64,000 nt of DNA from NCBI RefSeq assembly GCF_035989265.1, contig NZ_JAYKZX010000003.1:1302001-1366000 (forward strand), given 5' to 3'. The position numbers and the translations under genes were made by a program. The DNA comes from Sphingobium sp. HWE2-09 (GTDB lineage: Bacteria; Pseudomonadota; Alphaproteobacteria; Sphingomonadales; Sphingomonadaceae). Below are positions 34,415-54,612 of the stretch, one piece after another; the first letter of the stretch is position 1; each line of letters starts with the position of its first letter. The notes under the pieces are model-generated. The model made no database searches. It was given only the letters and a program-made list of their open reading frames with translations, and was not told the DNA's origin.

Positions 34415-35380
34415 CTATGATCCGCCATCCTCCGGTTCCGGCACCATGCCCGCGTTGGGATTGTTGCTTTGATCCGGATCGCCCAGCTGCTCTTCGCAAT
34501 TATATTCCTTGAACAGCGCCAGTTCGGGCTGCCAGGAATAGGTCCGCACGATCGTCCAGGGCGCGGTGTAATAAAGCGGGTCATCGACCGTCGTGACGAT
34601 TTCCAGATAAGGCTTGGTCTTGCCGTTATCGACCTTGCGAATACGCTCGGTCAGCGTCGTGCGGGTCGATAGCGGGGTTCCGTTCACGTCGAAATAGAGC
34701 GTCTGGCGAAACCCTTCGACGGTGACGACCAGCGTGTTGCCGTCCCAGTGGCCGACCGACCGGCCCATATAGGGCTTTTCCGCCGTTTTCGGCGCGACGG
34801 CGGGATCGAGCAGGATGGTCCAGCGGCCATGATATTCTTCAAATAGGAAATCTACCACGCCCTTCGACTGGAATATCTGAAACGGCATGCCCAGGTCGCG
34901 CTGCCATTGCGGGCCGGGCGGACGGCATTGTGCCGAGGCGTTGAGGAAAGGCTTGCCGGTGGTCAGCGCGTTGACGCGGCGCGCCAGCACCTTGGCGCCC
35001 TCCATCGTATAGGGCAGGACTGCGCCGTACATGTCCCTTTGCACGCGAAATTCCAGCGGCTGGTTATGCACCCAGGTGCCGCGAAGATCGCGCGGATCGG
35101 CGGGGGGTCTGGGCGTTTCGGCCGTGAACGGCGCGAGCGGCTGGACGACGCCGGGTGCGGCCGGTGGCAATTCGCTTACCAGTTTTTCCGCGGGTGTCGG
35201 CGGCGGCGGTGGCGGGAAGGGGCTGGGCGGTTCGCCGCCTTCCGCCCCCTGACCGGGCGGCGGCGGCATTTGCGCCGCCGCGCCGACGGACTGGGTCAAC
35301 GTGAGGGCAAGGCAAGCCAGAATGGTAGCCTTGCGCGAAAACGGCGAACGGCGGCGAGCCGGAACCGATTGCGCGATCAA
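34415..35380 (-). CDS. Family B secreted protein of unknown function (copy 1)
   Basis: A 321-residue exported protein I cannot assign to a named family. A signal peptide ('ATILACLALTLTQSVGAAAQ') is followed by a Pro/Gly-rich linker. The conserved core has 'YTMEGAKVLARRVNAL', 'AQCRPPGPQWQRDLGMPF', 'FLFEEYHGRW', 'SVGHWDGNTLVVTVEGF' and the C-terminal 'EYNCEEQLGDP'. The two cysteines in those motifs are shared by all four B copies and may form a disulfide. The start is inferred as TTG at 35380, overlapping the upstream TGA as TTGA; there is no clear ribosome binding site. It is the last gene of the long operon, paired with family A copy 1. Confidence 0.75.
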   Translation of the reverse strand: MIAQSVPARRRSPFSRKATILACLALTLTQSVGAAAQMPPPPGQGAEGGEPPSPFPPPPPPTPAEKLVSELPPAAPGVVQPLAPFTAETPRPPADPRDLRGTWVHNQPLEFRVQRDMYGAVLPYTMEGAKVLARRVNALTTGKPFLNASAQCRPPGPQWQRDLGMPFQIFQSKGVVDFLFEEYHGRWTILLDPAVAPKTAEKPYMGRSVGHWDGNTLVVTVEGFRQTLYFDVNGTPLSTRTTLTERIRKVDNGKTKPYLEIVTTVDDPLYYTAPWTIVRTYSWQPELALFKEYNCEEQLGDPDQSNNPNAGMVPEPEDGGS

Positions 35381-36126
35381 GACGCGAACGCCGACTGATG
35401 CTTGGCGATGCGGTCCATGCAGACATCCTCTGGAAAAGCCGCGTCGGGCTGGCGCTTGTAGGTGATCACGCTGGTCCATGGCTGCGTGAAATTGACCGGA
35501 TCGGCGATCGTCACGCGGTCCTCCAGCGTGTTGGCGTCGACCAGGCGGATTCGCTCCGTCACCTTCATGTCAATGCTGTGCGGGACGAGATCGTCGATCA
35601 GCGTGCGTTCGGAAACGTCCGATGTCGTCGCGACCAAACTGTCGCCTTCCCAATGCCCTTTGGACACGCCGGTCATATTCGGCACGACTGGCGGATCGAC
35701 AGATAGGCCGCGCACGTCGATCTGGCGGATCGCGCGGTTCCATTCGAAATCGAACGTCACGACATTCTGCTGCTGCCAGATTTTGAAGCGCTTGGGCGTC
35801 AGCATCAGGCGCGGCACGCCGGGCGTGCTGCAACGGGATGTGGCGATGTCATAGGCGTCATAGTCCTTGCGCGCCTTCAGCCCCTTGTTCCGCTCATAGG
35901 CTTTGCGGCCCTCCGCCGTGAAGGGGATGGCCCCCGCCACCGGTTTGAGGCTGCCGGTCGGCGTGGCGATCTGCCACACGCCCTCCAGATTGGCGGTCGC
36001 GGCTGGAACTGCTGACGGCGTCTGGGCGACCAGTGCGGCGCACGGCATCAGTAGCGCCACCGCGAGAGATGCACCGCGCCATGCAATACGACGCCTGCCG
36101 AGGGTGCGGATTTTTACACCCATCAT
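35377..36126 (-). CDS. Family A secreted protein of unknown function (copy 1)
   Basis: A 249-residue exported protein with a signal peptide ending 'CAALVAQ'. The core has 'NLEGVWQIATPTG', 'AIPFTAEGRKAYERNKGLKA', 'RCSTPGVPRLMLTPKRFKIW', 'FDFEWNRAIRQIDVRGL', 'VSKGHWEGDSLVATTSD', 'RTLIDDLVPHS' and 'FPEDVCMDRIAKHQSAF'. Its two conserved cysteines correspond in position to those in all family A copies. It overlaps DUF6152 upstream (ATGA) and family B downstream (TTGA), so the three proteins are probably made together. The closest copy here by eye is the one at 53.5-54.2 kb. Confidence 0.82.
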   Translation of the reverse strand: MMGVKIRTLGRRRIAWRGASLAVALLMPCAALVAQTPSAVPAATANLEGVWQIATPTGSLKPVAGAIPFTAEGRKAYERNKGLKARKDYDAYDIATSRCSTPGVPRLMLTPKRFKIWQQQNVVTFDFEWNRAIRQIDVRGLSVDPPVVPNMTGVSKGHWEGDSLVATTSDVSERTLIDDLVPHSIDMKVTERIRLVDANTLEDRVTIADPVNFTQPWTSVITYKRQPDAAFPEDVCMDRIAKHQSAFAS

Positions 36127-36614
36127 GACTGCGGACGTCCTGTGGGTGCGCCCTGCGGCTTGCCCGATTGCAGTGCGCTGGCTTCCGTATCGGAATAGGA
36201 CCGGCCGTCCGCCATGGTCAATTTCGACATGAAACCGCCCGGCAGACCGCTTACATTAGGATGATAGATGATCTGTACCTTGTCCCCGCTATGGAAATCG
36301 CGTGGCTGAAAGCCCTGCTTTACGAACAGCAGTGGGCTTCCGCTGCCCAGCGACATGGACGATATCTTGCCCTTGGCGTCCTTGTACATCACGATCAGCG
36401 ACGAATGGGGCGCGCCCCAACGGAACTCCTTTATCGTCGCCGACACGGTCATGGACTTGGCCATGTCGTAAGCGCGAAAGGAATGATGGGCCAGGACCGG
36501 CCCGGCAGACAGCGCCATCAGCGCCGCTGCCGGAACGATCCGCAACCATAGACTCGATTTGCCTGTCATCGCATGTTCCATTGGTGCTTTACGATCCCAT
36601 TTGGCTGCGGTCAT
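36123..36614 (-). CDS. DUF6152 family periplasmic protein (copy 1)
   Basis: A 163-residue exported protein. The signal peptide ends 'GPVLA' and the mature N-terminus is 'HHSFRAYDMAKSMTVSATIK', the DUF6152 hallmark. 'EFRWGAPHSSLIVMY' follows. The exposed His-His at the mature N-terminus invites metal binding, but the function of DUF6152 is not established. The ATG overlaps the TonB receptor stop (ATGA). A shorter start at the second or third ATG (MTGKSS...) would give a more usual signal peptide. It heads cassette 1: DUF6152, A, B. Confidence 0.85.
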   Translation of the reverse strand: MTAAKWDRKAPMEHAMTGKSSLWLRIVPAAALMALSAGPVLAHHSFRAYDMAKSMTVSATIKEFRWGAPHSSLIVMYKDAKGKISSMSLGSGSPLLFVKQGFQPRDFHSGDKVQIIYHPNVSGLPGGFMSKLTMADGRSYSDTEASALQSGKPQGAPTGRPQS

Positions 36615-38830
36615 AGCCTGACCGCAGCGGTGATGCCGAATGTCCGCGGATCGCTCAGATCGACCGTGCTGGTTCCAGCGACCGGTCCGAACGCGGCGGT
36701 GCGACGCGCGCCTGTCTTGTAACGCACATCGCCGACGTTCCGGACATATCCGGTCAGCGTGTAGCGGCCATCCTCGAACGACAGCGTGGCGCTGAGATTG
36801 CCCAGAAGCTTGCCTGAATTATATGCATAGGGCTTGGAGTTCAATGCGCCCGGTCCGCTCACCATCGCTTCGGCGACGGTCAGGCGAGACGCATAATAGG
36901 CCGAGCGATAGAGCAGTTCGCCGCGCAGCGACAATCTGGTCTGATCCTGAAGTTCCACACCCTGCTCCAGCCATCCATTCGCCTGGAACGGCACCGTTCC
37001 CGGAATCTTGTTGGTCCAGAACAAATATTGGAACTGGGCCGGAATGTCATGATAGCGGGCATGGTTGTAGGAGAGATTGACGCCGACCTGACCGTCCTGC
37101 CACGGACGCGCCAGCATTTCCAATTCTCCGCCATAGACCCTGACCGGCGACGTGACGGTATTGAACGTCGGGTTCATCGGGGTTTGCGGCGTCAGATTGA
37201 TGCCTGCGGTCTGATAGCCGCCATAGTCGTTATAGTAAGCGGCCACGTTGACCTGCAGGCGATTGCCCAGGAAGCGGTTCTTCGATCCGATTTCATAGGA
37301 GGTCAACGTCTGCGCCTGGAGATCGACCGGCGATGGGTTGCCGGTAATATCGGTGGCGATGGCGACGTCGCCGGGCGAAAAACCGGTCGATACCGACGCA
37401 TAGATTAGATTGACCGGGGTCAGATCATGTTCGAGCCGCGCCTTATAAGTGACGTTCTTGAATGTCCGCAGCCCTTCGTCGCCGATAAGATAGCCGGTAT
37501 TGCCGGTGATGCTGGTATAGACCTGATTGTTTCGAACGCGCGTATAGTCGTAACGAAGTCCTCCGGTGAGGCGGGTCGAATCCGACAGTGCATAGGTCGC
37601 TTCGCCGAATACGCCAATATTTTGGGTCTTTTTTGAGGATGCGGATCGGAACGCCAGCGCGTTCGTCGGGTAGAATCTCAGTTCGTTGAGATCCTTCAGC
37701 CGGTTATTGTAGTAAAACAGGCCCGCCTGCCATGACAACGCCGAATCATTGTGTGAGTTGATACGCAGTTCCTGGGTCAGGAATTTATCCGTGGGCGTTT
37801 GGAAGGTTTGATTGAATTCCGGCACGTTGCCACGCGAAACGCCCAGCGTATTCTGGGTCCATGTCTTGTAGGACGGCAGATAGACCAGGTTGACGCCACC
37901 CAGGTCGAGATTGAATTCACCCCAATATTGCCGGAATTTGTTCGTTCCGGTGCCATAGTCGGTTTTGACGGAGGTGAAATTGTCGGGCGTCGGCTGCGTG
38001 ATCGACACGCCGCCGACATTGGCGACATTGTCCTGAATGGCAACGCCCAGCAGCGCCGAAAATGTGTCCGACGGCGTGAACAGAAGCTTGGCGCGCCCTT
38101 CGCTGCTTCGGCGATAACCGCCGATGGCGGAATAATAGCCGTCTTTCGAATATCGGTTGCCAGCCACACGCAGCGCCAGCTTTCCATCGACCAGCGGAAT
38201 ATTCACGGCACCTGAAATCTGCGTCAGATTGTAATTGCCCACCTGCCCCAGCAGATCGACGCCGAATTTCGTCAGGTCGGGATTGCGCGTGTGAATGGCG
38301 ACGACGCCCGACGTGGCGCTGCGCCCGTACAAGGTGCCTTGCGGGCCGCGCAGCACTTCGACCCGTTCGATGTCGTAGCTGCCGCCGATGCCGTTATAGA
38401 CACCGTCGACATAGATGGCGGCCGCCGCGGCGGTCGACGTTACGCTGCCCCCGGTGCCGACGTTCGACTGAATGCCGCGGATCGTGAGGCCAGAGGCGGG
38501 ATTGTCGGTGGCGCCGGTATTGGAGCCTCCGGGGCTTTCGGCTGCGCCGCCAAGGACGCCGGGCACATTGTCAAGGATATTGGCCAAGCTGTAGCGGCCC
38601 TGCCTGCTCAGATCTTCGCCGCTGCGCGTGCTGATGGATGCGGCGGTCTTCTGTTCCGTGCTGGTGCGCCGTTCGGCGGTGACGATAATGTCCACCAATG
38701 TCCGTCCGTCCGATTGTTGGCTCGCAGATGTGCCGCCAACAGCGGACGTGGAATCCTGACCGAATGCGGCAGACGCAGCCCCCAGGCCGACCATCGATAC
38801 GGACAGCATCAAACAAATATGCAAACGCAT
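36611..38830 (-). CDS. TonB-dependent receptor (DUF6152 cassette 1)
   Basis: A 739-residue outer-membrane receptor. The ATG at 38830 is preceded by GGGGAGG five bases upstream. The signal peptide ends 'SAAFGQ'; the plug includes 'TLVDIIVTAERRTSTEQ' and 'YDIERVEVLRGPQGTLYGR'; the barrel ends in 'DPRTFGITAAVRL'. It resembles receptors often found with aromatic or terpenoid catabolism in sphingomonads more than siderophore receptors, though the ligand is not predictable. The stop overlaps the DUF6152 start, so receptor and cassette are translationally coupled. Confidence 0.93.
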   Translation of the reverse strand: MRLHICLMLSVSMVGLGAASAAFGQDSTSAVGGTSASQQSDGRTLVDIIVTAERRTSTEQKTAASISTRSGEDLSRQGRYSLANILDNVPGVLGGAAESPGGSNTGATDNPASGLTIRGIQSNVGTGGSVTSTAAAAAIYVDGVYNGIGGSYDIERVEVLRGPQGTLYGRSATSGVVAIHTRNPDLTKFGVDLLGQVGNYNLTQISGAVNIPLVDGKLALRVAGNRYSKDGYYSAIGGYRRSSEGRAKLLFTPSDTFSALLGVAIQDNVANVGGVSITQPTPDNFTSVKTDYGTGTNKFRQYWGEFNLDLGGVNLVYLPSYKTWTQNTLGVSRGNVPEFNQTFQTPTDKFLTQELRINSHNDSALSWQAGLFYYNNRLKDLNELRFYPTNALAFRSASSKKTQNIGVFGEATYALSDSTRLTGGLRYDYTRVRNNQVYTSITGNTGYLIGDEGLRTFKNVTYKARLEHDLTPVNLIYASVSTGFSPGDVAIATDITGNPSPVDLQAQTLTSYEIGSKNRFLGNRLQVNVAAYYNDYGGYQTAGINLTPQTPMNPTFNTVTSPVRVYGGELEMLARPWQDGQVGVNLSYNHARYHDIPAQFQYLFWTNKIPGTVPFQANGWLEQGVELQDQTRLSLRGELLYRSAYYASRLTVAEAMVSGPGALNSKPYAYNSGKLLGNLSATLSFEDGRYTLTGYVRNVGDVRYKTGARRTAAFGPVAGTSTVDLSDPRTFGITAAVRL

Positions 38831-38886
38831 AATCACCTCCCCTAAAACGACCTCTATGGATCTTAATTCTTGTGAACATTGTATAG

Positions 38887-39387
38887 CTATTTCATCAATA
38901 TTGTAATCGCATTTAACGCCATGATCGGACTCTTTTCCTTTCCACTCACGTCGAGCAAACTCTGTGAGCTATCCTTGACATCATAGCCTGCGCTACGCAG
39001 CCTCTTCACGAGAACATCCGGGTCACGCTTGATGACCACCGCCAGATCCTTGATCGGCGCGTTGGTCGACGCCTCCATGAAACTGCGCAGGCCTTTTTCT
39101 CCGCCGCCATCGATTTTCGGCCCGACAGGAATGAAGGTCGCGATGACGATTACTACATAGATGCCGATGATGATGCGTGCCTTGGTCTGTTTGAGATAGC
39201 GTTTGAACGCCACGAAATTGGTCGTAACGTGGGCCAGCCCACCGACGATGAAGATCAGTCCCAGATATTGATGCGCATTCTTGCCGATCAGCGTGGCGAC
39301 GTCGAAAAACATCGCCAGCCCCGTTACGGCTGCCAACAGGAAAGCGCCGATGACCACCGGCGTGGCCCATTCGCGTTTGATAACCAT
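38887..39387 (-). CDS. Small membrane protein, DUF4405-like
   Basis: A 166-residue protein with three N-terminal helices and a soluble C-terminal part of about 75 residues ('APIKDLAVVIKRDPDVLVKRL'). Two helix histidines, in 'GKNAHQYLGLIF' and 'GGLAHVTTNF', are spaced as in small b-type cytochrome-like proteins of the DUF4405 group, so haem binding is possible. GGGGAG precedes the ATG. It starts one base after the upstream gene's stop codon and lies 50 bases before the receptor gene. Confidence 0.65.
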   Translation of the reverse strand: MVIKREWATPVVIGAFLLAAVTGLAMFFDVATLIGKNAHQYLGLIFIVGGLAHVTTNFVAFKRYLKQTKARIIIGIYVVIVIATFIPVGPKIDGGGEKGLRSFMEASTNAPIKDLAVVIKRDPDVLVKRLRSAGYDVKDSSQSLLDVSGKEKSPIMALNAITILMK

Positions 39388-39388
39388 C

Positions 39389-40042
39389 CTATCGGCTCCC
39401 CGCTGGCGGTGGAGACGCAGGTCGGGGCTGTTCCGCAGCGCCCTTGGTGACGAGATCCTTGAAAGGCACCGTCATGGCCTTTGGCGGATTGGGCGGGATG
39501 CGCGCGCCATCCCAATGTTCGACCAGCTTGCCATTATCAACGCGCCAGAAGTCGAAGGCGAACGCCTCATAGAATTGGCCGGGATGCTGGGGGTCGGGCA
39601 GGTAGGATTTCTTGAGCTGAAACACATGATCGCAGTCGGCCATGATATAATGATAGGGGTCTTCGGCTGGCTGGCCCGGGAGCGGCGGTGGCGGTCCTTC
39701 CGCGCCCTTCGCCTTCATCTCCAGCAACAGCTTGAACTCGTCGAGCCCGTGCACGCCGTTCACCTCACCTATGCGGCGCGCGATCGGATTATGCTGGATA
39801 TAGTCCGGAGCCATCTTCTGATAGGCCAGTTCCGGGTCGTTCTTCATGTCGAACAGGTGGGGCAACGCCTTGTTCGCGGCGATCTGCTGCGCGCTGCAGC
39901 CTTGGGCTGACGCCGCGGCCGCGGGCGTGGCTTGCGCCATGGCGATGCCGACAGCGCCCACGCAGGTCAGCAGCCCGGCCGCAATGGCCAGATGCCTGAT
40001 CGATGGAGCGGACTTTGCGCGAAGGAGATTTGTCATGACCAT
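39389..40042 (-). CDS. SnoaL/NTF2-like secreted protein
   Basis: A 217-residue protein with a signal peptide ending 'GIAMAQ' and a SnoaL-like NTF2 fold: 'LAYQKMAPDYIQHNPIARR' and 'FDFWRVDNGKLVEHWDGARI'. The C-terminus and an internal loop are Pro-rich ('GPPPPLPGQPAEDP'). SnoaL-like proteins include cyclases, isomerases and hydratases, so an enzyme acting on the imported substrate is likely, but no reaction can be fixed. The ATG at 40042 or, two codons on, 40036 may be used. Confidence 0.78.
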   Translation of the reverse strand: MVMTNLLRAKSAPSIRHLAIAAGLLTCVGAVGIAMAQATPAAAASAQGCSAQQIAANKALPHLFDMKNDPELAYQKMAPDYIQHNPIARRIGEVNGVHGLDEFKLLLEMKAKGAEGPPPPLPGQPAEDPYHYIMADCDHVFQLKKSYLPDPQHPGQFYEAFAFDFWRVDNGKLVEHWDGARIPPNPPKAMTVPFKDLVTKGAAEQPRPASPPPAGSR

Positions 40043-40086
40043 GTCGCCTGTAGAAAGATGCCGGATAGATAAGCGGGCGTCCGGTT

Positions 40087-40647
40087 TCAGCCGCCTGGAA
40101 GCGGACCACCGGGCGGGGGACCACCGGGAAGGACTGCGCCGGGCGGCGGCGGGGGCATATCCGCCAGCGGCGTGTCCAGCCACTCCAGTATCTTCCTGTT
40201 GTGGACGCGATAATAAGCGCCCATCGGCATGGTGATGAGCTTGCCACCCAGCGAAAATTGATCGACGCGCCGGGCCAGCACCAGCACATCATTCTTTGCG
40301 CTGCCTACGGCGCACAGGGACTCAAACCTGATGCCGGTCAGGCCGCGCAGCAGGATGTTCACATCCTCCCGCAATGCCGTCAGCCCTTTTTTCAGATCGG
40401 TCTGGAACGGGTCGTCGCGATACTGGACGGCATCGTCCATGAGAGAAAGGAGCTTGTCGACGTCCTTGGCCACCAGCGCGTCGGCCCAGGCTCTCACCAG
40501 CGCGATCGCCCGCTTTTCTTCCGGCCCCTGGGCAGGCGTCGATTGCGCACGCGCCGCGACCGGGATCGCCGCGGCGGCCGCCACCCCGGCCAATAGCGTT
40601 CGGCGCGCGACGCCAGGCGTCATGGCCGTGTCGATCTGCTCGGACAT
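40087..40647 (-). CDS. Limonene-1,2-epoxide hydrolase-like protein with Tat-like signal
   Basis: A 186-residue NTF2-fold protein resembling limonene-1,2-epoxide hydrolase. The Asp-Arg-Asp triad of that enzyme can be matched to Arg127 and Asp129 in 'ARRVDQF' and Asp158 in 'ILEWLDTPL'. The water-binding Tyr matches Tyr76 in 'QYRDDPF', but the expected Asn is Asp78. The N-terminus 'ARRTLLAGVAAAAAIPVAARA' is twin-arginine-like, so it acts in the periplasm if correct. A Pro/Gly-rich tail ends the protein. GGAAGGA supports the start. It follows family B copy 2 by five bases. Confidence 0.75.
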   Translation of the reverse strand: MSEQIDTAMTPGVARRTLLAGVAAAAAIPVAARAQSTPAQGPEEKRAIALVRAWADALVAKDVDKLLSLMDDAVQYRDDPFQTDLKKGLTALREDVNILLRGLTGIRFESLCAVGSAKNDVLVLARRVDQFSLGGKLITMPMGAYYRVHNRKILEWLDTPLADMPPPPPGAVLPGGPPPGGPLPGG

Positions 40648-40652
40648 GGCGG

Positions 40653-41513
40653 TCAATCCTTCCCCTTGGGCGGCGTGCAAACCACCTTGTCCGCGACGAC
40701 GCCGTCCTTGACCGGGAACACGCAGGTCGGCCGGAACCAGTCATGCTGCCAGGTGAACTCTTCGAACAGGTCCGCGCGGGGATTTTCCGCGCAGTCATAA
40801 TCGACCAGCTTCACCCCGGAAATACGCTGCCATTTGCGCGTCTTGGTAAATGACTCCTTATAATATTCCGGGTCGGTGAAGGTGGTGACGCTGGTCAGGA
40901 AATTGCCGTCGGCGCTCTTGGTCAGGCGTTGCACCATGTGCATCTGGGTTCCGTGGGGATTGCCGACCTCATCCATCTGTCCCTTGCCATTATAGCCGAT
41001 CGTATCGATGACGAGCGTATCGCCGTCCCAATGCGCGACGGAATTGCCCGAATAGGATGGTTGCAAATCCTTGGGGTGATCCTGATTAAGGTAGATTTTC
41101 CGCACTTCCCGATCCTCTTCCTGCACGAACACGAATTTTTCGGGCGTCTGGAGGATCAGGACCGGGCCTTTGGGCGAAATCACACCCTGAATACCGGTCG
41201 GTCGGCAGGTCAGATGCGCGCTCGCATTGGCATGGCCTGCCTTGAACAGTTCAAGCCGGGTGGCGGCGAGATCCTGCGCTTCGGGCTTGTAAGGCAGGTC
41301 GATGCCCAGCAGGAAGGGAGAGTTGGTCGGAAGATCAGTCCAAGTCCCCTCGAAATTATGCGGGTCAGACGCCGGGCTTGTCGCCTGCGTCTGAGCGACC
41401 GCCCCCGACGACGCAGCGCCAGCGACCAGCAGCACGGCCAGAGCAGCACTTGCAGAACGCAAAGCGGAACATATAGGCCCGCGGCGCATGAATGACGTTG
41501 TGAAAGCCATCAT
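40653..41513 (-). CDS. Divergent family B secreted protein (copy 2)
   Basis: A 286-residue exported protein, signal peptide ending 'SSGAVAQ'. It shares the B-type order: 'NFEGTWTDLPTN', 'LTCRPTGIQGVISP', 'NSVAHWDGDTLVIDTIGYNG' and 'LVDYDCAENPRADLF'. The cysteines of 'CRPTG' and 'YDCAEN' match the two conserved cysteines of family B; two more lie in 'PTCVFP' and 'VVCTPP'. It lacks the 'YHGRW' motif of the others, so it is a divergent member. It lies three bases after family A copy 2, forming the second A/B pair. Confidence 0.72.
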   Translation of the reverse strand: MMAFTTSFMRRGPICSALRSASAALAVLLVAGAASSGAVAQTQATSPASDPHNFEGTWTDLPTNSPFLLGIDLPYKPEAQDLAATRLELFKAGHANASAHLTCRPTGIQGVISPKGPVLILQTPEKFVFVQEEDREVRKIYLNQDHPKDLQPSYSGNSVAHWDGDTLVIDTIGYNGKGQMDEVGNPHGTQMHMVQRLTKSADGNFLTSVTTFTDPEYYKESFTKTRKWQRISGVKLVDYDCAENPRADLFEEFTWQHDWFRPTCVFPVKDGVVADKVVCTPPKGKD

Positions 41514-41516
41514 GAT

Positions 41517-42464: not shown

Positions 42465-42968
42465 TTAATGGGGCGGATCGGTCTTGGTGTTGCGACTGAG
42501 ATAGGCGGACAGCGCATCCAGGTCGGCGTCCGTTATCTCGGTCTTGCGGAATGGCGGCATCGCGTTCAGGCCATTCCTGACGAAGGTGCTGACGATGTCA
42601 GGCGTCAGGTCGGTGCGGCTTTCCAGATCGGCCGGGACGCTGCCCTTGTAGCGCTGCCGCAACAGGGCGGTGCCCAGCGGCGTGCGGGAGATGGGCGACA
42701 GCTTGTCAGCCGCCTCCTTGCCGCCCGACGGTTGGAAATCGGGCGCGTGACAGCCCGAACACCATTTGCTGTACACCAGATAGCCCTGTCCGACCTTCCC
42801 GGGCAGGTTCGACGCCGGGACGACGCCGCCGATCGAGGATTCATAGACCGGCCTGCGGGGCGATTGCGCCTGCGCTGCGCCATCGTCGTGAGTGGACCGG
42901 ACATAGAGGACAGATCCGACCAGGGCCGTTCCGGCCAGGGCCAGGAGAGGAAAGAGCGCCTTTTTCAT
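42465..42968 (-). CDS. Cytochrome c, likely partner subunit of the adjacent flavoprotein
   Basis: A 167-residue class I cytochrome c. The signal or anchor is 'ALFPLLALAGTALVGSVLY'. The haem motif is 'CSGCH' (residues 70-74) and the probable Met ligand is Met137 in 'NAMPPF'. Its ATG overlaps the stop of the VAO-type oxidase gene (ATGA), as for the flavoprotein and cytochrome subunits of p-cresol methylhydroxylase and eugenol hydroxylase. It should take electrons from the flavin in the periplasm. Confidence 0.88.
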   Translation of the reverse strand: MKKALFPLLALAGTALVGSVLYVRSTHDDGAAQAQSPRRPVYESSIGGVVPASNLPGKVGQGYLVYSKWCSGCHAPDFQPSGGKEAADKLSPISRTPLGTALLRQRYKGSVPADLESRTDLTPDIVSTFVRNGLNAMPPFRKTEITDADLDALSAYLSRNTKTDPPH

Positions 42969-45204: not shown

Positions 45205-45219
45205 GAACGGAACTCCAGC

Positions 45220-45951: not shown

Positions 45952-46091
45952 CAGGGAACCCTTTTTCACTGTCTTCGCCGTGATCGCGCCATGGGCGCAT
46001 GCCGACATCAGGACCGCCGATCGATCGGGCGGGGAGCGGCGCGCACATCCTGGCGCCGGGAGGGCTTTTGCCGTTGCAGCAGGTTGCGCCA

Positions 46092-47084
46092 TCACCTGTC
46101 GTCCGGTTCCGGGATCAGGCCGAAGGCGCTGCCCCCACCCTCCGACGCCTGAGATTCGCAATTATATTCTTCCAGGACGTTCTTGTCGGGACGCCACGCG
46201 AAGGTGCGGACGAACGACCAGGGCGCACTGTACATCTTGGCGTCGTAGACGGTCGCAAAGATTTCCAGCTTGGGCTTGCCATAGTCGATCTTGCGGATGC
46301 GATAGACGATCCGGGCATCCTTGGACGCGGGCGTGCCGTCGAAATCCGTCCAGAAGCGATCCTTGTAGTTGGTCGTTTCCACGACCAGCGTGTCGCCTTC
46401 CCAATGGCCGATGGAATCGCCCATATAAGCGCGCGGCGCCGACGCATCATGGGTCGTCCGATCGAGGCGAATGGACCAGGCGGCGTGATCCATCGCGAAC
46501 AGGATCAGAACCTCCTTGTCCGTTTGATAGATCTGGAAGGGATAATAGAGGCCGAACAGCCAGGGTTGCGCGGGCGGCCTGCATTCTCCCGAAGCATTGG
46601 AATAGGGCTTGCCATCGACATAGGTCGATTTCACGCGCCGATCGCGAATGCTGCGCCCCAAAGGAGTGAAGGGAACGTCATTGCCGTAGACGTCCCATTC
46701 GACGCGCGCGATCGCCGGCTGGTCCTTTGCCCAGGCGCCTTCGAGATTGCGGGGATCGGACGATGGCTTGGGCGCATCGGCAGCCAAGGGCGGATAGAGG
46801 TTGCGGATGACGCCCGCTTCCGCCGTAACGCCGAACAACACCCGGCCGCCACCCGGGCCGAAAACCGGAAGGTCGGGATTCTTGGGCAGCGGCGGCGGCC
46901 CCTGCATCTTGGAGGGCGGTCCCGACGCCCCGTCAGGTGGCGGCGGCATGCCATCGGCAGGGGGCTGCATACCCCCCGCAGGCGGTTGCACACCGGCGGG
47001 CGGCCCCGACTGCGCAAGCGCCCCCTGCGTCGCCGCCATCACGCTCAACGTACCCACCAGCAAGGTCAGGGACCACCGCATCAA
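46092..47084 (-). CDS. Family B secreted protein of unknown function (copy 3)
   Basis: A 330-residue exported protein. The signal peptide ends 'ATQGALAQ' and is followed by a Pro/Gly-rich linker of about 45 residues. Core: 'DPRNLEGAWAKDQPAIARVE', 'GECRPPAQPWLFGLYYPF', 'DSIGHWEGDTLVVETTNY', 'LEIFATVYDAKMYSAPW' and 'EEYNCESQASEGGG'. Both family B cysteines are kept. The ATG overlaps the DUF6152 stop (ATGA). Compared with copies 1 and 4, the 'EEYHGRW' motif is changed to 'AMDHAAW'. Confidence 0.82.
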   Translation of the reverse strand: MMRWSLTLLVGTLSVMAATQGALAQSGPPAGVQPPAGGMQPPADGMPPPPDGASGPPSKMQGPPPLPKNPDLPVFGPGGGRVLFGVTAEAGVIRNLYPPLAADAPKPSSDPRNLEGAWAKDQPAIARVEWDVYGNDVPFTPLGRSIRDRRVKSTYVDGKPYSNASGECRPPAQPWLFGLYYPFQIYQTDKEVLILFAMDHAAWSIRLDRTTHDASAPRAYMGDSIGHWEGDTLVVETTNYKDRFWTDFDGTPASKDARIVYRIRKIDYGKPKLEIFATVYDAKMYSAPWSFVRTFAWRPDKNVLEEYNCESQASEGGGSAFGLIPEPDDR

Positions 47085-47509
47085 TTGGCTCGCTTCAATG
47101 TCGGCAGGCCAAGATCGGTGGGCAGTTCGCCCTGATTGCCCGGGCCATACAGCACCTTGCCGTTCGCCAGCGTGACGGAGCGCAATGTGCCGCCCGGCTC
47201 GCCTGAACGGATCGGCGCGATGACGACTTTCAGCTTGTCGCCGACCTTGAACATTTCAGGCTTCCAACCCAATCGCCGCGCCAGGCCTGGCGAACCGGAT
47301 TTTATGGCCCATTCGACCATTCCACCTTTACCATTGGGGATGACGACCTGAAGAAAACAATGGGGGTTCATCCATTGCAGTTTCTTGAGGGTTCCGTTGA
47401 GTGTAACGGTTTTATTATAGTCGTAATTAGCGGTCGAATGATGGGAGATCGCTTGCGACCCCACCGTCATCGCGGCTACCGCAAATACCAGTTTCAAATA
47501 TTGTTTCAT
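47081..47509 (-). CDS. DUF6152 family periplasmic protein (copy 2)
   Basis: A 142-residue exported protein. The start at 47509 gives 'MKQYLKLVFAVAAMTVGSQA' as signal peptide. The mature N-terminus 'ISHHSTANYDYNKTVTLNGT' and 'LKKLQWMNPHCFLQVVIPNG' match DUF6152. It is closer to generic DUF6152 proteins ('MNPH') than copies 1 and 3 ('GAPHSS'). It heads cassette 2 (DUF6152, B, A). Confidence 0.87.
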   Translation of the reverse strand: MKQYLKLVFAVAAMTVGSQAISHHSTANYDYNKTVTLNGTLKKLQWMNPHCFLQVVIPNGKGGMVEWAIKSGSPGLARRLGWKPEMFKVGDKLKVVIAPIRSGEPGGTLRSVTLANGKVLYGPGNQGELPTDLGLPTLKRAN

Positions 47510-47671
47510 GGCTTTGCAGAATCCATATCCCAAAACTTCGATCAGAGCGCGAATGTTTCGCACATAATCGATGATACGCTATCGATCATATATTATATGT
47601 ATTGAGTGCTTAGGCATAGCGCCGTACATTTCCGCACTCAAACATCTTTACATAACTTTACGTCCATATCT
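47510..47671. promoter_or_regulatory. AT-rich gap between receptor and DUF6152 copy 2
   Basis: This 162-base gap is much richer in A/T than the flanking genes and holds a near-palindrome (CATATA-T-TATATG, 47587-47599). It is the largest gap inside the otherwise tightly packed gene run from 50.0 to 34.4 kb. It could carry an internal promoter for the downstream genes or attenuate reading from the receptor. No strong terminator with a T-run was found. Confidence 0.35.
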
Positions 47672-50050
47672 TCAGAAGTCTGCCGCCAGGACTACGCCGA
47701 ATGTTCTGGGGTCAGCATATCTGGCGATGACGATATTGGCCGGAGGAGGACCACCGGGCGTGCCGACTCCCGGAACGACCGATCCCGTCTGGATGTAGCG
47801 GCGGTCGCCGATATTGCGGACATAGGCGGTGATCGAATAGCGACCGGCGATGGTCCAGGTTGCATGAGCGTTGGCGACGAATTGATCGTCGACCCGAACC
47901 GACGGCGCCAGCCCATTGGCGATATCGACCTGACTAAGATAGGTAAAGTCGTAGCCGGAGCGATAGATGCCATCGACGCCAAGTTCGAGGATATGATTAT
48001 CCGCAAGATCGATATGTCGAATATAGGAAATATTGGCAGTGACCGGCGATATACCGGCAATTTTTTCCTGTGCGATATTGCTCGCAAAGTTGGCCGTCTT
48101 ATCTTTGAACTTGGCATCAGTGTAGACGATGTTGAAACCGATCCTGTCATTGGGACTGGGTCGGAATGCCGCCTCCAACTCGGCACCCTTTATTTCCGCC
48201 TTCGATGTCAGGGTCACGAGGTTGAGCGTGGGGTCGCCGGGCGGGGCCACATTGACGCCACCGACCTGATAGCCGCCATAGCGATAATAATAGATCGCGC
48301 CATTGAGCTGGAGCGTGTTGCCGAACAGGCGGTTCTTCGTCCCGATTTCATAGGCCGTCAGCGTTTCGGTATCGAAGTCAGCGATATAGGGCCCGGCCGC
48401 CCCGGAGGTGACGTTGATGTCGCCCGGCAGAAATCCAGTCGATACAGAGGCATAGACCAGATTTTCCGGCGTGAGGTCATGTTCGACGCGCAGCTTGAAC
48501 GTCATATTGTTGAACACGCGCTTGCTGGTATCCGGCCGCACCTGCAACGTTACGGGAATGCTCGTCGGCGGAAAGGTGGAAAGGTCCGAGACGATGGACG
48601 TATAATCCTGATCCGTCGTAATCTTCGTATGGTCGTAGCGAATGCCTGCGGTCAATCGGGTCTGATCCGTAAAGGAAAAGCTACCCTCTCCAAAGACTCC
48701 CAGATCCGTCGTCAGCTTCTTGTTAAGCGTCGACTCATAGCTCAGATTATAGACTCCATCGGTAGGAAGCCCCTCTGGCGGCACGACCACGCCCGGCACC
48801 GTCGGCGGCGCAGCGGGCGCTGGCGTCTGATTTTCGACCAGATTATGATTGCGAAGGTCGTTGCGGTAATAATATCCGCCGACCTGCCACTTCAAACGGG
48901 AAGTGCCGCTGGACGCGAGACGCAGTTCCTGGGTCAGGAAATGATCGCGAGGCGTTTCGATCGTTTGGCGGATCAGCAATCCGCCCTGCGTAAAGGCTTG
49001 CCCACTCTGTTCCCATGTGCGGAATGCAGGGATATAGGTCAATGCAGCTGCGCCCAAGTCCCAGTCGAGTTGCGCCCAATACATGCGGAACTTGTTTTTG
49101 GCGTCGCCGATCGGGACATCGCTATAGGTCAGCTTGCCGGGCGACAGCACCTGCCCGTTGATCTCGCCCGAATGCGTTTCGTTATCCTGGAATGCAAAGC
49201 CTGCCAGCAACGAGAAATTATCGGTCGGCGCGTACAGCGCCTTGATCCTGCCCTCTGTCGTGGAAATCGCATCACCGTCTTTGGCGTAATAGCCATCGCG
49301 GCTATAATAATTGCCGGACGCGCGTACGGCAAAATGCTCGCCGACAGGGATGTTGATGGCGCCGGTGACATGCGCCAGATCGGCAGTACCGACCTCCGCT
49401 GCCGCGTTGCCGCCCCATTGACCGACCAGTGGATCGCGCGTGTGGATCGCGATCACGCCTGCAGTCGCACTGCGACCATATAATGTACCCTGCGGACCGC
49501 GCAGCACTTCGACCCGACCGATATCATAGGCGCCACCAATGCCCCCGGCGATATCATCGGTGTAGATGGCGGTGGCAGGCACCGTCGAATTGATGCTGCC
49601 GCCCAGGGGCGCGTTCGAACCGATCCCCCGGATCGAAATCCCCGTGCCTGGCGTGTCGGTGCCGGCACCAGCGGCACCGACATCGGCGCCCCCCGCCACG
49701 CCGGGCACATCTTCCAATATCTGGCGAAGGGTGAATTTTCCTTCCTTTTGCAACTGTCCGCCCTGACGGACACTGACCGATGCAGCCGTATTCTGAAGAG
49801 ATTCCATACGGCGTTCCGCCGTGACGATAATCTCATCCAGGGCGGTGGTCGGACGCGTCGCCGCCGTCTGCGCATGGGAAGGCATCGCAGCCATGCCCAC
49901 GATCGCCGTGCCGACGAGCGACGCCATCCGCACCGACATCACATGCTTATGAGGTCGGGCAAGATCGCGAACGATGCGCATTGGCGGATTCGAAACCACC
50001 ACGGCTTTCAGCGATTGCTCGACCTTTTCAGTCTTCAATTTCATGATCAT
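47672..50050 (-). CDS. TonB-dependent receptor heading the long operon
   Basis: A 792-residue outer-membrane receptor. The signal peptide appears late ('MASLVGTAIVGMAAMPSHAQ', residues 42-61), so the first 40 residues may not be translated and an internal ATG (the MSVRM start) is possible. Plug: 'ALDEIIVTAERRMESLQNT' and 'YDIGRVEVLRGPQGTLYGR'. The barrel ends in 'DPRTFGVVLAADF'. It resembles the receptor at 36.6-38.8 kb in plug sequence and in its barrel ('DHFLTQELRLASSG'). It is the first gene of the run of about 16 genes on this strand and probably imports the pathway substrate. Confidence 0.92.
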   Translation of the reverse strand: MIMKLKTEKVEQSLKAVVVSNPPMRIVRDLARPHKHVMSVRMASLVGTAIVGMAAMPSHAQTAATRPTTALDEIIVTAERRMESLQNTAASVSVRQGGQLQKEGKFTLRQILEDVPGVAGGADVGAAGAGTDTPGTGISIRGIGSNAPLGGSINSTVPATAIYTDDIAGGIGGAYDIGRVEVLRGPQGTLYGRSATAGVIAIHTRDPLVGQWGGNAAAEVGTADLAHVTGAINIPVGEHFAVRASGNYYSRDGYYAKDGDAISTTEGRIKALYAPTDNFSLLAGFAFQDNETHSGEINGQVLSPGKLTYSDVPIGDAKNKFRMYWAQLDWDLGAAALTYIPAFRTWEQSGQAFTQGGLLIRQTIETPRDHFLTQELRLASSGTSRLKWQVGGYYYRNDLRNHNLVENQTPAPAAPPTVPGVVVPPEGLPTDGVYNLSYESTLNKKLTTDLGVFGEGSFSFTDQTRLTAGIRYDHTKITTDQDYTSIVSDLSTFPPTSIPVTLQVRPDTSKRVFNNMTFKLRVEHDLTPENLVYASVSTGFLPGDINVTSGAAGPYIADFDTETLTAYEIGTKNRLFGNTLQLNGAIYYYRYGGYQVGGVNVAPPGDPTLNLVTLTSKAEIKGAELEAAFRPSPNDRIGFNIVYTDAKFKDKTANFASNIAQEKIAGISPVTANISYIRHIDLADNHILELGVDGIYRSGYDFTYLSQVDIANGLAPSVRVDDQFVANAHATWTIAGRYSITAYVRNIGDRRYIQTGSVVPGVGTPGGPPPANIVIARYADPRTFGVVLAADF

Positions 50051-50601: not shown

Positions 50602-50629
50602 TTGTGGCTGTTGCGGTAGGATGGACCGT

Positions 50630-51145
50630 TCAGGCGAGCGGGTAGGAATAGCCGATCCAGCGGCCCAGAAAGACGATGAGGATCCAGAGCGTCAGCGAAC
50701 TGATGCCCGCGACCTTTGCAGCGGTGGGGGTGGGCAGGCGGTCGTCCCACTCGCCGATCTTGCGATAGGCGGTCAGGTGGAAGATGCCCATGTTGATGCC
50801 CGCGATGACGATGGCGACCAGCTTGAAGCGGAACGGCATGCTTTCATAATAGCCGGTCGCGTTGGACAGGAAGAGCAGCGAGCCGGTGATGATCGCAAAG
50901 GCGAAGGCCACCCAGGTAAAGGGCAGCATGTCCACGATCAGCTGACGCGCGCCGCGACGGTGCGAGGAAAAGCCGATGAGCCGCAGATCGACGATGGCGA
51001 TCGTGCCCACGACGATGGCGATCATCAGCACATGGGTGCTTTCGATCCAGGGGAAGAGCGTCCCGCTCTCGCGGATCGCCGTGCCGATCGCCGAATCATA
51101 TAGCGTCTGCATCAGGCCGCCCTGGGTTTCGAGGCTGGGAACCAT
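50630..51145 (-). CDS. DUF6644-like four-helix membrane protein (copy 2)
   Basis: A 171-residue integral membrane protein with four to five predicted helices. It is related to the upstream gene: both have a 'DLRL' turn after the first helix pair and a C-terminal 'GRWI.Y' motif ('FLGRWIGYSYPLA'). His residues in 'IESTHVLM' and 'GIFHLTAYR' could be ligands for haem or metal. GGAG eight bases before the ATG supports the start. DUF6644 has no known function; it often neighbours DUF6152 as far as I recall. Confidence 0.7.
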   Translation of the reverse strand: MVPSLETQGGLMQTLYDSAIGTAIRESGTLFPWIESTHVLMIAIVVGTIAIVDLRLIGFSSHRRGARQLIVDMLPFTWVAFAFAIITGSLLFLSNATGYYESMPFRFKLVAIVIAGINMGIFHLTAYRKIGEWDDRLPTPTAAKVAGISSLTLWILIVFLGRWIGYSYPLA

Positions 51146-51169
51146 GGGATATTCTCCGGACAGATGGGA

Positions 51170-51658
51170 TTATTGGTAGTAGGCGATCCAGCGTCCGCAG
51201 AAGACGACCATCATCCAGATCGCGAGCGAGGCCCAGGCCATCGGCTTGATCAGCCGGGCCGCGCGGGCATGTTCGATCCGATAATCGGGATGCAGGATGG
51301 GATAGCGGAACAGCAAAGTCAGGGTGAAGCCGGTAAGGACCAGCGCCATCTTGACCCAGAAGACCAGGTTCGTGAGCACGCGATAGGGTTCGGCCAGGCC
51401 CAGCACGAAACCCGACGTCAGCAGCACGGCCAAGCCCGACCACATCCAGGGGAGATGGCGCTTGACCACGCCGCGCGGCGTTTCATCGGTGGCGAGCACG
51501 CCCGCCAGGCGCAGGTCCATCACGATGGCCGCGCCGATCACCGCGGCGATCGCGACGATATGGACGCTCTGCACCGCAGGGACGATCCATGCGGTTTCGC
51601 GCAGGCCCGTGCTGATCGCGGTGCCGTAGAGACTTTGAGCAAATTTTTCGACTGACAT
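51170..51658 (-). CDS. DUF6644-like four-helix membrane protein (copy 1)
   Basis: A 162-residue membrane protein with helices 'VHIVAIAAVIGAAIVMDLRL', 'MWSGLAVLLTSGFVLGL', 'VFWVKMALVLTGFTLTLLF' and 'WASLAIWMMVVFCGRWIAYY'. The His of 'QSVHIV' aligns with that of the next gene. GAGGAA precedes the ATG. The tandem arrangement suggests a heterodimer or a recent duplication. It sits downstream of cassette 3 in the same direction. Confidence 0.7.
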   Translation of the reverse strand: MSVEKFAQSLYGTAISTGLRETAWIVPAVQSVHIVAIAAVIGAAIVMDLRLAGVLATDETPRGVVKRHLPWMWSGLAVLLTSGFVLGLAEPYRVLTNLVFWVKMALVLTGFTLTLLFRYPILHPDYRIEHARAARLIKPMAWASLAIWMMVVFCGRWIAYYQ

Positions 51659-51766
51659 GTCGGGGTTCCTCGCGGCTGGGGCGGACGTGTCGATTTCGAT
51701 CGAAACGCGTGCATTGCAGAGCTTTTCAAGAAAAGCCGCTCTGCACGCGCCGTCGAAACCAGCCGG

Positions 51767-52375
51767 TTACGGCTGATTGCCGGGGGGCGGCGGCATCATA
51801 GCTGCCGGAGGCATGGCACCTGGAGGCGGACCACCGGGAGGCATGGCACCGGTCGGCGGCATGCCCGGACCGCCGACGCCCGATGGCTTCTGGCTCAGGT
51901 CCCAATGCTCGACCAGCTTGCCGTCCTTTACCCGGAACATGTTGAAGATATAGGATTGCTGGACCTTGCCGGTCGCTGGATCTGGCATCTCGCGCGATGT
52001 CAGCATCATGACCAGATCATTTTCCGCCATGATCGCGATCGGCTTGGCCGGTGGCGGGGCTTTCATCGCCGGCATGGACTGGAACATATGCACCAGCTTG
52101 TCGCGCCCGTTACCGGTCCCCCCTTCATCGGCGAACGCGGCGGCATGCTGAATATAGTTGGGGCTGATATAGCGTTCGGCGATGCCCTGGATGCGCGCCT
52201 TCATGGCGTTTGCGGCATCGGCGTCGTCCAGCGCCTTGTAGAAATCGACCACGACTTTCCGGTTGGCGGCTTCCGCGGGTGTTTCATGAGCGCTGGCGGG
52301 CGAAACGGCGGCCAGCATCGCCGCTAGCGATATGCCAATCCCCGCCCATGTGCCAAAGCGTGTCGATATGCGCAT
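51767..52375 (-). CDS. SnoaL-like secreted protein with Pro/Gly-rich tail
   Basis: A 202-residue exported protein. AGGAGAG five bases before the ATG at 52375 gives a strong start; the signal peptide ends 'SPASA'. 'VVVDFYKALDDADAANAMKA', 'YISPNYIQHAAAFADEG' and 'FNMFRVKDGKLVEHWDLSQ' match SnoaL-like NTF2 folds and resemble the protein at 39.4-40.0 kb. The last 45 residues are Met/Pro/Gly-rich and repetitive. It follows the A/B pair of cassette 3. Confidence 0.78.
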   Translation of the reverse strand: MRISTRFGTWAGIGISLAAMLAAVSPASAHETPAEAANRKVVVDFYKALDDADAANAMKARIQGIAERYISPNYIQHAAAFADEGGTGNGRDKLVHMFQSMPAMKAPPPAKPIAIMAENDLVMMLTSREMPDPATGKVQQSYIFNMFRVKDGKLVEHWDLSQKPSGVGGPGMPPTGAMPPGGPPPGAMPPAAMMPPPPGNQP

Positions 52376-52456
52376 GACGTCTCTCCTGTACGATCGGCTT
52401 TCGATAGAGCCTTCAAGGTTCATCCCCGAAGATGTCGTCCGGGGCGGTATGGCAAT

Positions 52457-53436
52457 TCACTCAACGGGTTCGGGCACCAGCCCTGCATCGACCGGGACAC
52501 CAGGATCGCCGACTTGCTCTTCGCAATTATATTCGGAGAATACAGCCTGATGGGGAACCCATCCGAAGGTGCGCACGATCGACCATGACTTGGTGTAATA
52601 GGTCGGGTCGAAGACCGTAGTGGCGATCTCCAAAAACGGTGTCTCGTCCCCATTGCTGACCCTGCGGATGCGCTGGATCAGCTTGCCGTTGGCCGACAGC
52701 GGCGTACCATCGACGTCGAGCCAGATGGCCTGCTTGAAGTCGGTCGTCTCGACCACCAGCGTGTCACCGTCCCAATGGCCCACAGACTTGCCCATATATT
52801 GTTTCTGCGCAGGCAGCGGCATCGCCTGGGGATCGAGCGTGATGTTCCAGCGGCCGTGATATTCCTCGAACAGGAACGAGACATAGTCCTTGCCCTGCGT
52901 GATCAGGAACGGGAAGTTGAGATCATATTGCCATTGCGCACCGGGCGGACGGCATATGGCCGATGCGTTGATAAAGGGCTTGCCGTCGGCCAGCGACTTG
53001 ACGCGGCGGGCAATGACCTTCGCCCCCTCCATCGTATAGGGCAATGCTGCCCCATACATGTCCTTTTGCGACCGAAATTCGAGGATCTGGTTGTGAAACC
53101 AAGTCCCCTGAAAATCGCGCGGATCCGATGAAGGCATAACCGATCCTGCGGGCAATGGTGGCCGCGGGGGCAAAGCGCCGGGCGTGGGCGGCGGCAAGTC
53201 GGCGACGATCTTCTGCGCGGGCGTCAATACAGGACCAGGCGGCATGCCGGGAATGCCGCCGGGCGGTGCGCCACCTGCGCCGGGGGCAGCTTAAGCCCGC
53301 CGGCCGGGGGCGGCCCCGGCGGCGGCGAAGCTGGCTGGGCAAAGGTTGCGCTGCCGGTCGCCAAGGCGAGCGCGATCGTGGCAGCCCGCGCCAACGTCAA
53401 CGGGCGACAAGTGACCGAAAGGGCGAATGGGATCAT
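52457..53436 (-). pseudogene. Family B secreted protein (copy 4), frameshifted in N-terminal linker
   Basis: The conserved B core is intact: 'DPRDFQGTWFHNQILEFRSQ', 'AICRPPGAQWQYDLNFPF', 'FLFEEYHGRWNITLDP', 'SVGHWDGDTLVVETTDF' and 'SEYNCEEQVGDPG'. The signal peptide ('AATIALALATGSATFAQ') lies in another frame. The two join if one base is added to a five-base G run at 53282-53286, giving a continuous Pro/Gly-rich linker like those of copies 1 and 3. As read, no exported product would be made. A GTG at 53472 overlaps the family A stop (GTGA) and is an alternative start; the ATG at 53436 has GGAG nine bases upstream. Confidence 0.78.
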
Positions 53437-53468
53437 GCGGAAAGGCTCCAGATCAGATGGCGGCCGCG

Positions 53469-54194
53469 TCACTTGGGGAAGGCGGACTGCTTGGCGTCGA
53501 TGCGATCAAGGCAGACATCTTCGGGGAAAATCGCGTCGGGCTGGCGCTTGTAGGTGACGACGGCGTCCCACGGTTTGGTGAAATAGTCGGGATCCTCGAT
53601 CGTGATCCGGTCTTCCAGCGTGTTCGCGTCGATCAGGCGATAGCGTTCGGTGACCTTGAGGTCGTAGCCATGGGGCACGAGATCGTCGATCAGGGTCCGG
53701 TCAGACGCACCTTCCATGACGGACACCAAAGTGTCGCCTTCCCAATGGCCCTTGGACTTGCCGGTCATGGTGGGCACCAGCCCCTGCCCCATCAGGTCGG
53801 GCTGCGGCGGGACGCCGACATTGATCTGCCGCAGCGCGCGGTTCCATTCATAATCGAAGGTCACGACATTCTGCCGGTTCCAGATCTTGAACCGCATCGG
53901 CGTCAGCGCCAGGCGTGGCACGCCAGGATTGGAGCAGCGCGACAGGGTGATGTCGTAATCGTCAAACTTGCCCTTTACCTTAAGTGCCTTGTTCGCGTCA
54001 TAGGCCTTGCGCCCTTCCGCGGTGAAGGGAATGGCGCCGGACACCGGCTTCAGGATGGTGGTGGGCGTCGCGATCTTCCATACGCCCTCCAGCTGGGGTG
54101 GCGAACCCTGGGCCGCACCGACGGTGGCGATGGAGAGCGCCATGCCGGTCAGCACGGCGCGCAGGGCGATGTGGCGCTTCCTGTCGATGCCCAT
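53469..54194 (-). CDS. Family A secreted protein of unknown function (copy 4)
   Basis: A 241-residue exported protein; AAAGAGG precedes the ATG at 54194. Motifs: 'LEGVWKIATPTTILKPVSGA', 'RCSNPGVPRLALTPMRFKIW', 'FDYEWNRALRQINVG', 'GKSKGHWEGDTLVSVMEG', 'RTLIDDLVPHGYDLKVTERY' and 'FPEDVCLDRIDAKQSAF'. It is very similar to copy 1 along its whole length, including the end, suggesting that cassettes 1 and 3 arose by duplication. It is ten bases after DUF6152 copy 3. Confidence 0.83.
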   Translation of the reverse strand: MGIDRKRHIALRAVLTGMALSIATVGAAQGSPPQLEGVWKIATPTTILKPVSGAIPFTAEGRKAYDANKALKVKGKFDDYDITLSRCSNPGVPRLALTPMRFKIWNRQNVVTFDYEWNRALRQINVGVPPQPDLMGQGLVPTMTGKSKGHWEGDTLVSVMEGASDRTLIDDLVPHGYDLKVTERYRLIDANTLEDRITIEDPDYFTKPWDAVVTYKRQPDAIFPEDVCLDRIDAKQSAFPK

Positions 54195-54204
54195 GTCGCC
54201 TCTT

Positions 54205-54612
54205 TCAATTACCGCCGGCACGGGCGGCTTCGCTGTCGGAGAAAGTCCGGCCGTCCGATAGCTTGAGGCTGGACATCGCACCGCCCGGCTGGCCGCCGGT
54301 ATTGGGATGATAGGTCACCTTGACCTTCTCGCCGCGCTTGAAGTCGCGAGGCACGAAACCCTGTTTGGAGAACATCAGCGGACTGCCGCTGACGACCGAC
54401 ATTTCCTTGGGCTTGCCCTTCTCCAGATAGATCAGCACCATGGAGGAATGCGGCGCGCCCCAGCGAAATTCCTTCAGCGTGCCTTCGGCGCTGAGCGTCC
54501 GGCTCATATCGTAGGCCGCGAAGCTATGATGCGCGAGCGCGGAGCCGGTCATTGCACCGACGCCGACAGCCGCGACCGCCCCTAAGCACCAATATGATTT
54601 GAACATATTCAT
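54205..54612 (-). CDS. DUF6152 family periplasmic protein (copy 3)
   Basis: A 135-residue exported protein. GGAG seven bases before the ATG at 54612 supports the start; the signal peptide ends 'TGSALA'. The mature protein begins 'HHSFAAYDMSRTLSAEGTLK' and continues 'EFRWGAPHSSMVLIYLEKGK', close to copy 1. It heads cassette 3 (DUF6152, A, B, SnoaL, two DUF6644 genes) and is divergent from the two-component system. Confidence 0.87.
   Translation of the reverse strand: MNMFKSYWCLGAVAAVGVGAMTGSALAHHSFAAYDMSRTLSAEGTLKEFRWGAPHSSMVLIYLEKGKPKEMSVVSGSPLMFSKQGFVPRDFKRGEKVKVTYHPNTGGQPGGAMSSLKLSDGRTFSDSEAARAGGN

Follow-up and report, generated by a model that had tools for sequence, protein, structure and literature searches.

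A 64,000-nucleotide stretch of the genome of Sphingobium sp. HWE2-09 (contig NZ_JAYKZX010000003.1, positions 1,302,001 to 1,366,000; hereafter the window) carries a cluster in which genes for two types of secreted protein, termed A and B, stand in four adjacent pairs, three of them headed by a gene of the Pfam family DUF6152. As judged from their sequences, A and B are diverged duplicates within one superfamily, and their predicted models indicate that they are probably secreted calycin-type β-barrel proteins, i.e. small barrels for oily molecules. The calycin fold itself is known; what is new is a strict calycin pair beside a protein with an N-terminal histidine. Our preferred account, which we put forward tentatively, is that the cluster encodes a periplasmic module that captures a lipophilic phenolic compound and hands it over to other proteins.

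A sequence-only reading of the window had reported that A and B each occur four times, side by side, and all eight open reading frames (ORFs) were recovered in this arrangement, every one on the minus strand (Table 1). It had regarded them as two separate families, which does not hold: when the window's own genome (4.4 Mb; the window lies on contig C3) was searched with the A protein encoded at 35377, other A copies were retrieved with E values of 1e-24 to 1e-96 and B copies with E values of 1e-4 to 1e-20, and many other members of the superfamily stand singly beside DUF6152. These matches, together with the common superfamily, rule out that A and B are unrelated. Residues that are invariant in all eight proteins include G49, W51, C99, G153, S155, W159, D178, D209 and C236 (positions in the 35377 protein). 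The core and the cysteine pair described earlier are thus common to all copies, but the motifs quoted for them are inexact in some copies (GQWSGDTLVV in 45220, AHWEEDVLVI in 41517, GHWDGNTLVV in 34415, and CRPTG and DYDC in 40653). The predicted models of both A and B are eight- to ten-stranded antiparallel barrels, as in calycins, and their best fold matches are calycins of the FABP/retinol-binding type, mostly binding proteins; NanoLuc-type luciferases are also among the fold matches. At the level of sequence, none of the eight window proteins matched a Pfam model at E ≤ 1 and none passed an NCBIfam cut-off (one weak match, E 0.014, reached 15 bits where 100 are required). Lipocalin/FABP Pfam models matched neither the 27 A and 25 B alignment members at E ≤ 1 nor the window copies, and Pfam as a whole gave only weak, chance-like matches to these members (PRKCH_uORF2 in 9 of 27 A proteins, best E 0.033). 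Profile searches of PDB sequences returned nothing significant (best E 0.87 for A and 0.57 for DUF6152, no match for B). The signal peptides of A and B were recognized by eye, and no membrane anchor beyond them was seen in this way.

The pairing extends well beyond the window. An A-profile scan of the genome collection yielded 18 loci, all fetched with an A query: seven from Novosphingobium sp. Rr 2-17, the others from Novosphingobium SG919 and FKTRR1, Sphingomonas faeni, aurantiaca (2) and glacialis, one Sphingomonadales metagenome-assembled genome (MAG), and MAGs labelled Gammaproteobacteria (2) and Caulobacteraceae (2 loci on one contig). With the six copies in the window's genome they provide 30 distinct A genes, a gene lying in two overlapping loci being counted once, and each of the 30 is accompanied, on its own strand and within 1.5 kb, by a B-class gene. 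The immediate partner of one of them (L027:16571) reaches a B score of 132 bits, under our 150-bit rule, and one B gene without a visible A (L030:276) lies at a contig end; three more strict A genes from other same-family genomes also adjoin a B-leaning gene. Strict pairing, proposed from the window alone, is therefore upheld across sphingomonad genomes and MAGs, and the two outcomes named beforehand as refuting it, A homologues mostly without B and unrelated folds, both fail in view of the 30 pairs and the common predicted fold. Pairs in other genomes likewise rule out a local oddity, and in the Rr 2-17 genome the window's gene order between TonB2 and the first pair recurs in one stretch (L034/L018), which has an additional pair and an additional DUF6152.

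A and B have also been inherited together. In a tree of 29 pairs, from which the pair broken by an insertion element was omitted, the A and the B proteins fall into two distinct clades (support 1.0), and their distance matrices correlate with r = 0.953, a value reached by none of 2000 shuffles (maximum 0.60). For the 19 cassettes that contain DUF6152, the correlations are 0.967 for A-B, 0.872 for A-DUF6152 and 0.830 for B-DUF6152; all lie above the shuffles, so linkage accounts for part of the agreement. These trees suggest one old duplication followed by inheritance as a unit. Two further cassettes of the window's genome bear on its recent history. The B of another pair (L015:16009-18413 and 18602-19570; C3, ~2.921-2.925 Mb) is split by an insertion that carries an IS91-type transposase and a phage-type integrase, with the C-terminal B fragment on its far side, and a second DUF6152-A-B-DUF6644-DUF6644 cassette (L017), nearly identical to window 50630-54729 (97-99% identity for DUF6644, 86% for DUF6152), is a recent copy.

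The wider superfamily is patchily distributed. Two of 21 close-relative genomes and, at E ≤ 1e-15, nine of 398 genomes of the phylum match the A profile, the window's genome being included in both counts. Among same-family genomes, at least 36 of 298 have a match at E ≤ 1e-6, at most eight or seven candidates per genome being scored (two runs), and among the matches listed only three genomes besides the window's own exceed 160 bits. A tblastn search of plasmids found only distant members (seven records, all below 60% identity). In 14 loci picked from the top family matches, DUF6152 adjoins a superfamily member every time, a broader link than the sequence-only reading had seen. Three of these loci have the strict DUF6152-A-B layout, six have calycin-DUF6152-DUF6152-calycin, two have calycin-calycin-DUF6152 and three have a single calycin. 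This mixture indicates that doubled calycins recur and that A/B is one specialized form; the singletons, as in the last three loci, rule out that the superfamily is always paired. The symmetrical cassette was seen in L077, L078, L079, L081, L082 and L083, all from other genomes of the family.

DUF6152 is likely to be a histidine-brace-type metal protein, to judge from its conserved residues. The window copies (36123, 47081 and 54205) score 67.4, 98.2 and 67.4 bits against a Pfam cut-off of 27, which bears out the three DUF6152-headed pairs reported earlier. H43, H44, S45, P69, H70, G110 and P119 are invariant among 19 aligned proteins, and in 71 of 73 distinct DUF6152 ORFs (70 by script, L087 by eye) a hydrophobic stretch is followed by HH and, 15-45 residues on, by PH; of the remaining two, one is truncated at a locus end and one is a degenerate fragment of 21.8 bits. 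Ala directly precedes HH in 67 ORFs (script). Because HH comes right after the signal peptide, the cleavage site of which was placed by eye and hydropathy without a predictor, mature DUF6152 probably begins with His. In the accessible text of two papers, the copper ‘histidine brace’ is built on an N-terminal His (PMC12537917; PMC12362106). The CopC Pfam model matched two window copies of DUF6152 not at all at E ≤ 1, and the third not at E ≤ 0.1. DUF6152 does not depend on A/B: it was found in 10 of 120 sampled genomes of the phylum (own included), and the nine loci outside the window's genome have no calycin within ~1.5 kb. A DUF6644-like membrane gene adjoins DUF6152 in six of these nine; four of the six match the DUF6644 model at E ≤ 0.007, one of them over its cut-off, and an invariant His is present in all 13 aligned DUF6644-like proteins. 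No paper naming DUF6152 or DUF6644 was found in a search that did not extend to subscription papers and supplements, in agreement with the earlier description of the system as undescribed.

Within the window, the minus strand between 54729 and 34415 carries a run of DUF6152, A, B, SnoaL-like, DUF6644, TonB-receptor, flavin and cytochrome genes (Table 1). A precedes B in three pairs and B precedes A in 45220/46092. Overlapping starts, noted earlier, are possible at four junctions, where 4-base overlaps depend on the start chosen: DUF6152/A (36126), A/B (TTG 35380), DUF6152/B (47084) and B/A (GTG 46095); at 40653/41517 there is instead a gap of 3 bases. The signal peptide of B4 (52457) is encoded in a different frame from the barrel (window 53245-53470), which places a frame break within the proline-rich linker; an unbroken close relative exists elsewhere (P0122), and the break is either a sequencing error or decay. 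The FAD_binding_4 oxidoreductase presumably resembles p-cresol methylhydroxylase.

Table 1. Features of the A/B cluster and its flank in the window
Feature	Position	Strand	Evidence
B1, secreted calycin-like protein	34415..35479	-	ORF list, alignment, fold model; start uncertain, TTG 35380 alternative
A1, secreted calycin-like protein	35377..36126	-	ORF list, alignment, fold model
DUF6152, mature N-terminus probably HHS	36123..36614	-	PF19649, 1.2e-18
TonB-dependent receptor	36611..38836	-	Plug and beta-barrel domain matches
Small membrane protein, DUF4405-like	38887..39387	-	Pfam match below cut-off
Secreted SnoaL/NTF2-like protein (weak)	39389..40183	-	E 0.02, below cut-off
SnoaL_2 protein	40087..40680	-	7.4e-7
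B2, most divergent B	40653..41513	-	ORF list, alignment, tree
A2, most divergent A, Pro/Gly-rich loop	41517..42401	-	ORF list, alignment, tree
c-type cytochrome, ORF start too far upstream	42465..43442	-	Cytochrome_CBB3, 9.3e-13
FAD_binding_4 oxidoreductase	42965..44587	-	6.9e-25
SnoaL_2 protein	44704..45204	-	2.7e-7
A3, pair with B-A order	45220..46161	-	ORF list, alignment
B3	46092..47084	-	ORF list, alignment
DUF6152	47081..47563	-	PF19649, 2.9e-28
TonB-dependent receptor	47672..50050	-	TonB receptor subfamily models, below cut-off
DUF6644 membrane protein	50630..51145	-	3.7e-8
DUF6644 membrane protein	51170..51658	-	7.3e-16
Secreted SnoaL_2 protein, Pro-rich tail	51767..52423	-	8.2e-8
B4, frame broken between signal peptide and barrel	52457..53245	-	ORF list, frame inspection
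A4	53469..54281	-	ORF list, alignment
DUF6152	54205..54729	-	PF19649, 1.2e-18
Two-component pair, CpxR/CpxA-like, divergent from cluster	54996..56982	+	NCBIfam matches below cut-offs

Elsewhere in the window, a FAD_binding_3 monooxygenase frame at 33121-34341 is split into two ORFs by one in-frame stop, ORFs at ~3258-21985 resemble (by eye) sulfonate-type ABC transport and flavin monooxygenase genes unrelated to the A/B cluster, and an Rfam scan matched only a tRNA at 62466.

Nearby genes of the 29 pairs encode SnoaL-like proteins (18), TonB receptors (17) and DUF6644 (10), and one metagenomic protein is a SnoaL-B fusion. The wider loci of relatives contain FAD_binding_3 hydroxylases (all four scanned match the Pfam model, and that of L019 passes the cut-off of the 3-(3-hydroxyphenyl)propionate hydroxylase subfamily), as well as ADC-like, YceI, FAA hydrolase and extradiol-dioxygenase-like proteins. 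Some loci, including the second cluster of the window's genome, also encode HupE/UreJ-2-type permeases (Pfam confirmed for one), and all six ORFs inspected have an A-His N-terminus, the His following an apparent signal peptide (L016:8255, L021:1411, L024:17693, L025:13754, L028:16767 and L029:14503). These ORFs resemble the copper-binding Ang-1 on HupE/UreJ-2 permeases, as described in the accessible text of PMC12537917, and by sequence it is possible that they are Ang-1 homologues. Aromatic-degradation neighbours and His-leading permeases together favour an aromatic substrate plus a metal.

In the module that we tentatively propose, a lipophilic, probably phenolic compound would enter via the neighbouring TonB receptor and be held inside the barrels of A and B, which most likely serve jointly as a periplasmic carrier pair. 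SnoaL-like and flavin/cytochrome c enzymes of the periplasm would then receive the compound and start its oxidation. DUF6152, with a putative histidine-brace-type site formed by its N-terminal His and the later His, would cooperate with DUF6644 in the membrane, in the manner of CopC/CopD, in supplying or buffering the metal. We infer the ligand, the transfer direction, the A-B contact, the metal and the link between barrels and DUF6152; such a module may help the bacterium to take up aromatic compounds. It is also possible, albeit doubtful, that A and B never touch, being separate carriers of different ligands that stay together only as one operon. Superfamily singletons exist, the gene order flips (B first in 3 of 29 pairs) and linkage alone yields similar trees; yet none of the 30 A genes lacks a B, and the A and B trees agree more closely with each other than with the equally linked DUF6152. 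The readings overlap, separate carriers being compatible with the others, so their probabilities do not sum to one.

We consider it unlikely that A and B are instead calycin-fold enzymes, mutually dependent halves that act with SnoaL-like proteins on an aromatic substrate. Calycin enzymes such as phenolic acid decarboxylase and allene oxide cyclase exist, and the frequent SnoaL-like partners (18 of 29 pairs), the SnoaL-B fusion, the FAD and cytochrome c enzymes encoded within the cluster, the many polar invariant residues and the NanoLuc-type fold matches all fit; against this, the invariants common to A and B consist largely of Gly, Trp, Pro, Cys and turn Asp, with no obvious catalytic set, and the fold matches are mostly binding proteins. 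About the same low weight goes to uptake of a metal or metal chelate, in which the TonB receptors import the complex, A/B bind the chelator and DUF6152/DUF6644 take the metal. The HH...PH signature, the DUF6644-like neighbours of DUF6152 outside the A/B system, the A-His junction of the six Ang-1-like permease ORFs (PMC12537917) and the window receptors' top NCBIfam matches (siderophore and haem types, below cut-off) argue for it, whereas aromatic-degradation genes lie nearby, no known metal-chelate pathway gene was identified, and A/B copies vary strongly within one genome, more as expected of changing organic ligands. Less probable still is that the paired calycin presents a lipophilic aromatic to DUF6152, a small histidine-brace copper protein that would itself oxidize it with electrons from cytochrome c and copper from DUF6644; if this were true, DUF6152 would be a widespread, unrecognized copper enzyme or copper carrier. 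Very improbable is a periplasmic sensor in which A/B, on binding a ligand, would signal to the Cpx-like two-component pair next to the cluster (54996-56982), as VtrA/VtrC, an obligate heterodimeric calycin, does for bile salts (PMC4933562). This precedent, the position of the two-component genes here and their presence within 3.5 kb of four of 29 pairs speak for it; against it, 25 pairs have no such neighbour, and by eye neither A nor B has a membrane anchor beyond its signal peptide.

With their fold predicted, a partner strictly kept and a metal partner likely, proteins annotated as hypothetical become a testable uptake/oxidation module. The superfamily is secreted, lacks a Pfam or NCBIfam model and is present in many copies in some sphingomonad-family genomes. 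If DUF6152 binds copper via its N-terminal His, a chemistry can be given to a Pfam family with no assigned function, and DUF6152-DUF6644 units of other Pseudomonadota become candidate metal handlers.

Several known systems share parts of this design. A and B are similar to FABP/retinol-binding calycins in predicted strand order and in a helical lid after the first strand, but are secreted, contain two cysteines and have no detectable sequence kinship with them, and B has in addition a long Pro-rich N-terminal region. SusC/SusD-type uptake systems likewise place a TonB receptor gene beside secreted ligand-binding proteins, but by eye neither A nor B is a lipoprotein, and their fold is different. 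DUF6152 resembles the copper proteins of the CopC/CopD and YcnI/YcnJ systems, as far as the accessible text of PMC12362106 describes them, in being small and secreted, with His right after the signal peptide, a later His and a membrane protein gene alongside (DUF6644 in this case); DUF6152 and DUF6644 are nevertheless other families, and metal binding by DUF6152 is a prediction. The N-terminal-His metalloproteins DUF4198, DUF6702, Ang-1 and Ang-2 also have a signal peptide followed at once by His (PMC12537917, the main text of which, where accessible and leaving its supplements aside, does not mention DUF6152). Among proven calycin heterodimers the VtrA/VtrC bile-salt receptor comes closest; there VtrC alone forms the barrel, which VtrA completes (PMC4933562, accessible text). 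The A/B heterodimer is a proposal. VtrA/VtrC is a membrane signalling receptor, whereas A and B are soluble, are each predicted to be a full barrel and match no other domain, such as the DNA-binding domain of a VtrA/VtrC-type partner. Both systems nonetheless consist of adjacent genes for periplasmic proteins with a calycin barrel, the VtrA/VtrC ligand being hydrophobic (PMC4933562), and the adjacency and constant pairing typical of such a heterodimer are seen for A/B in 30 of 30 cases.

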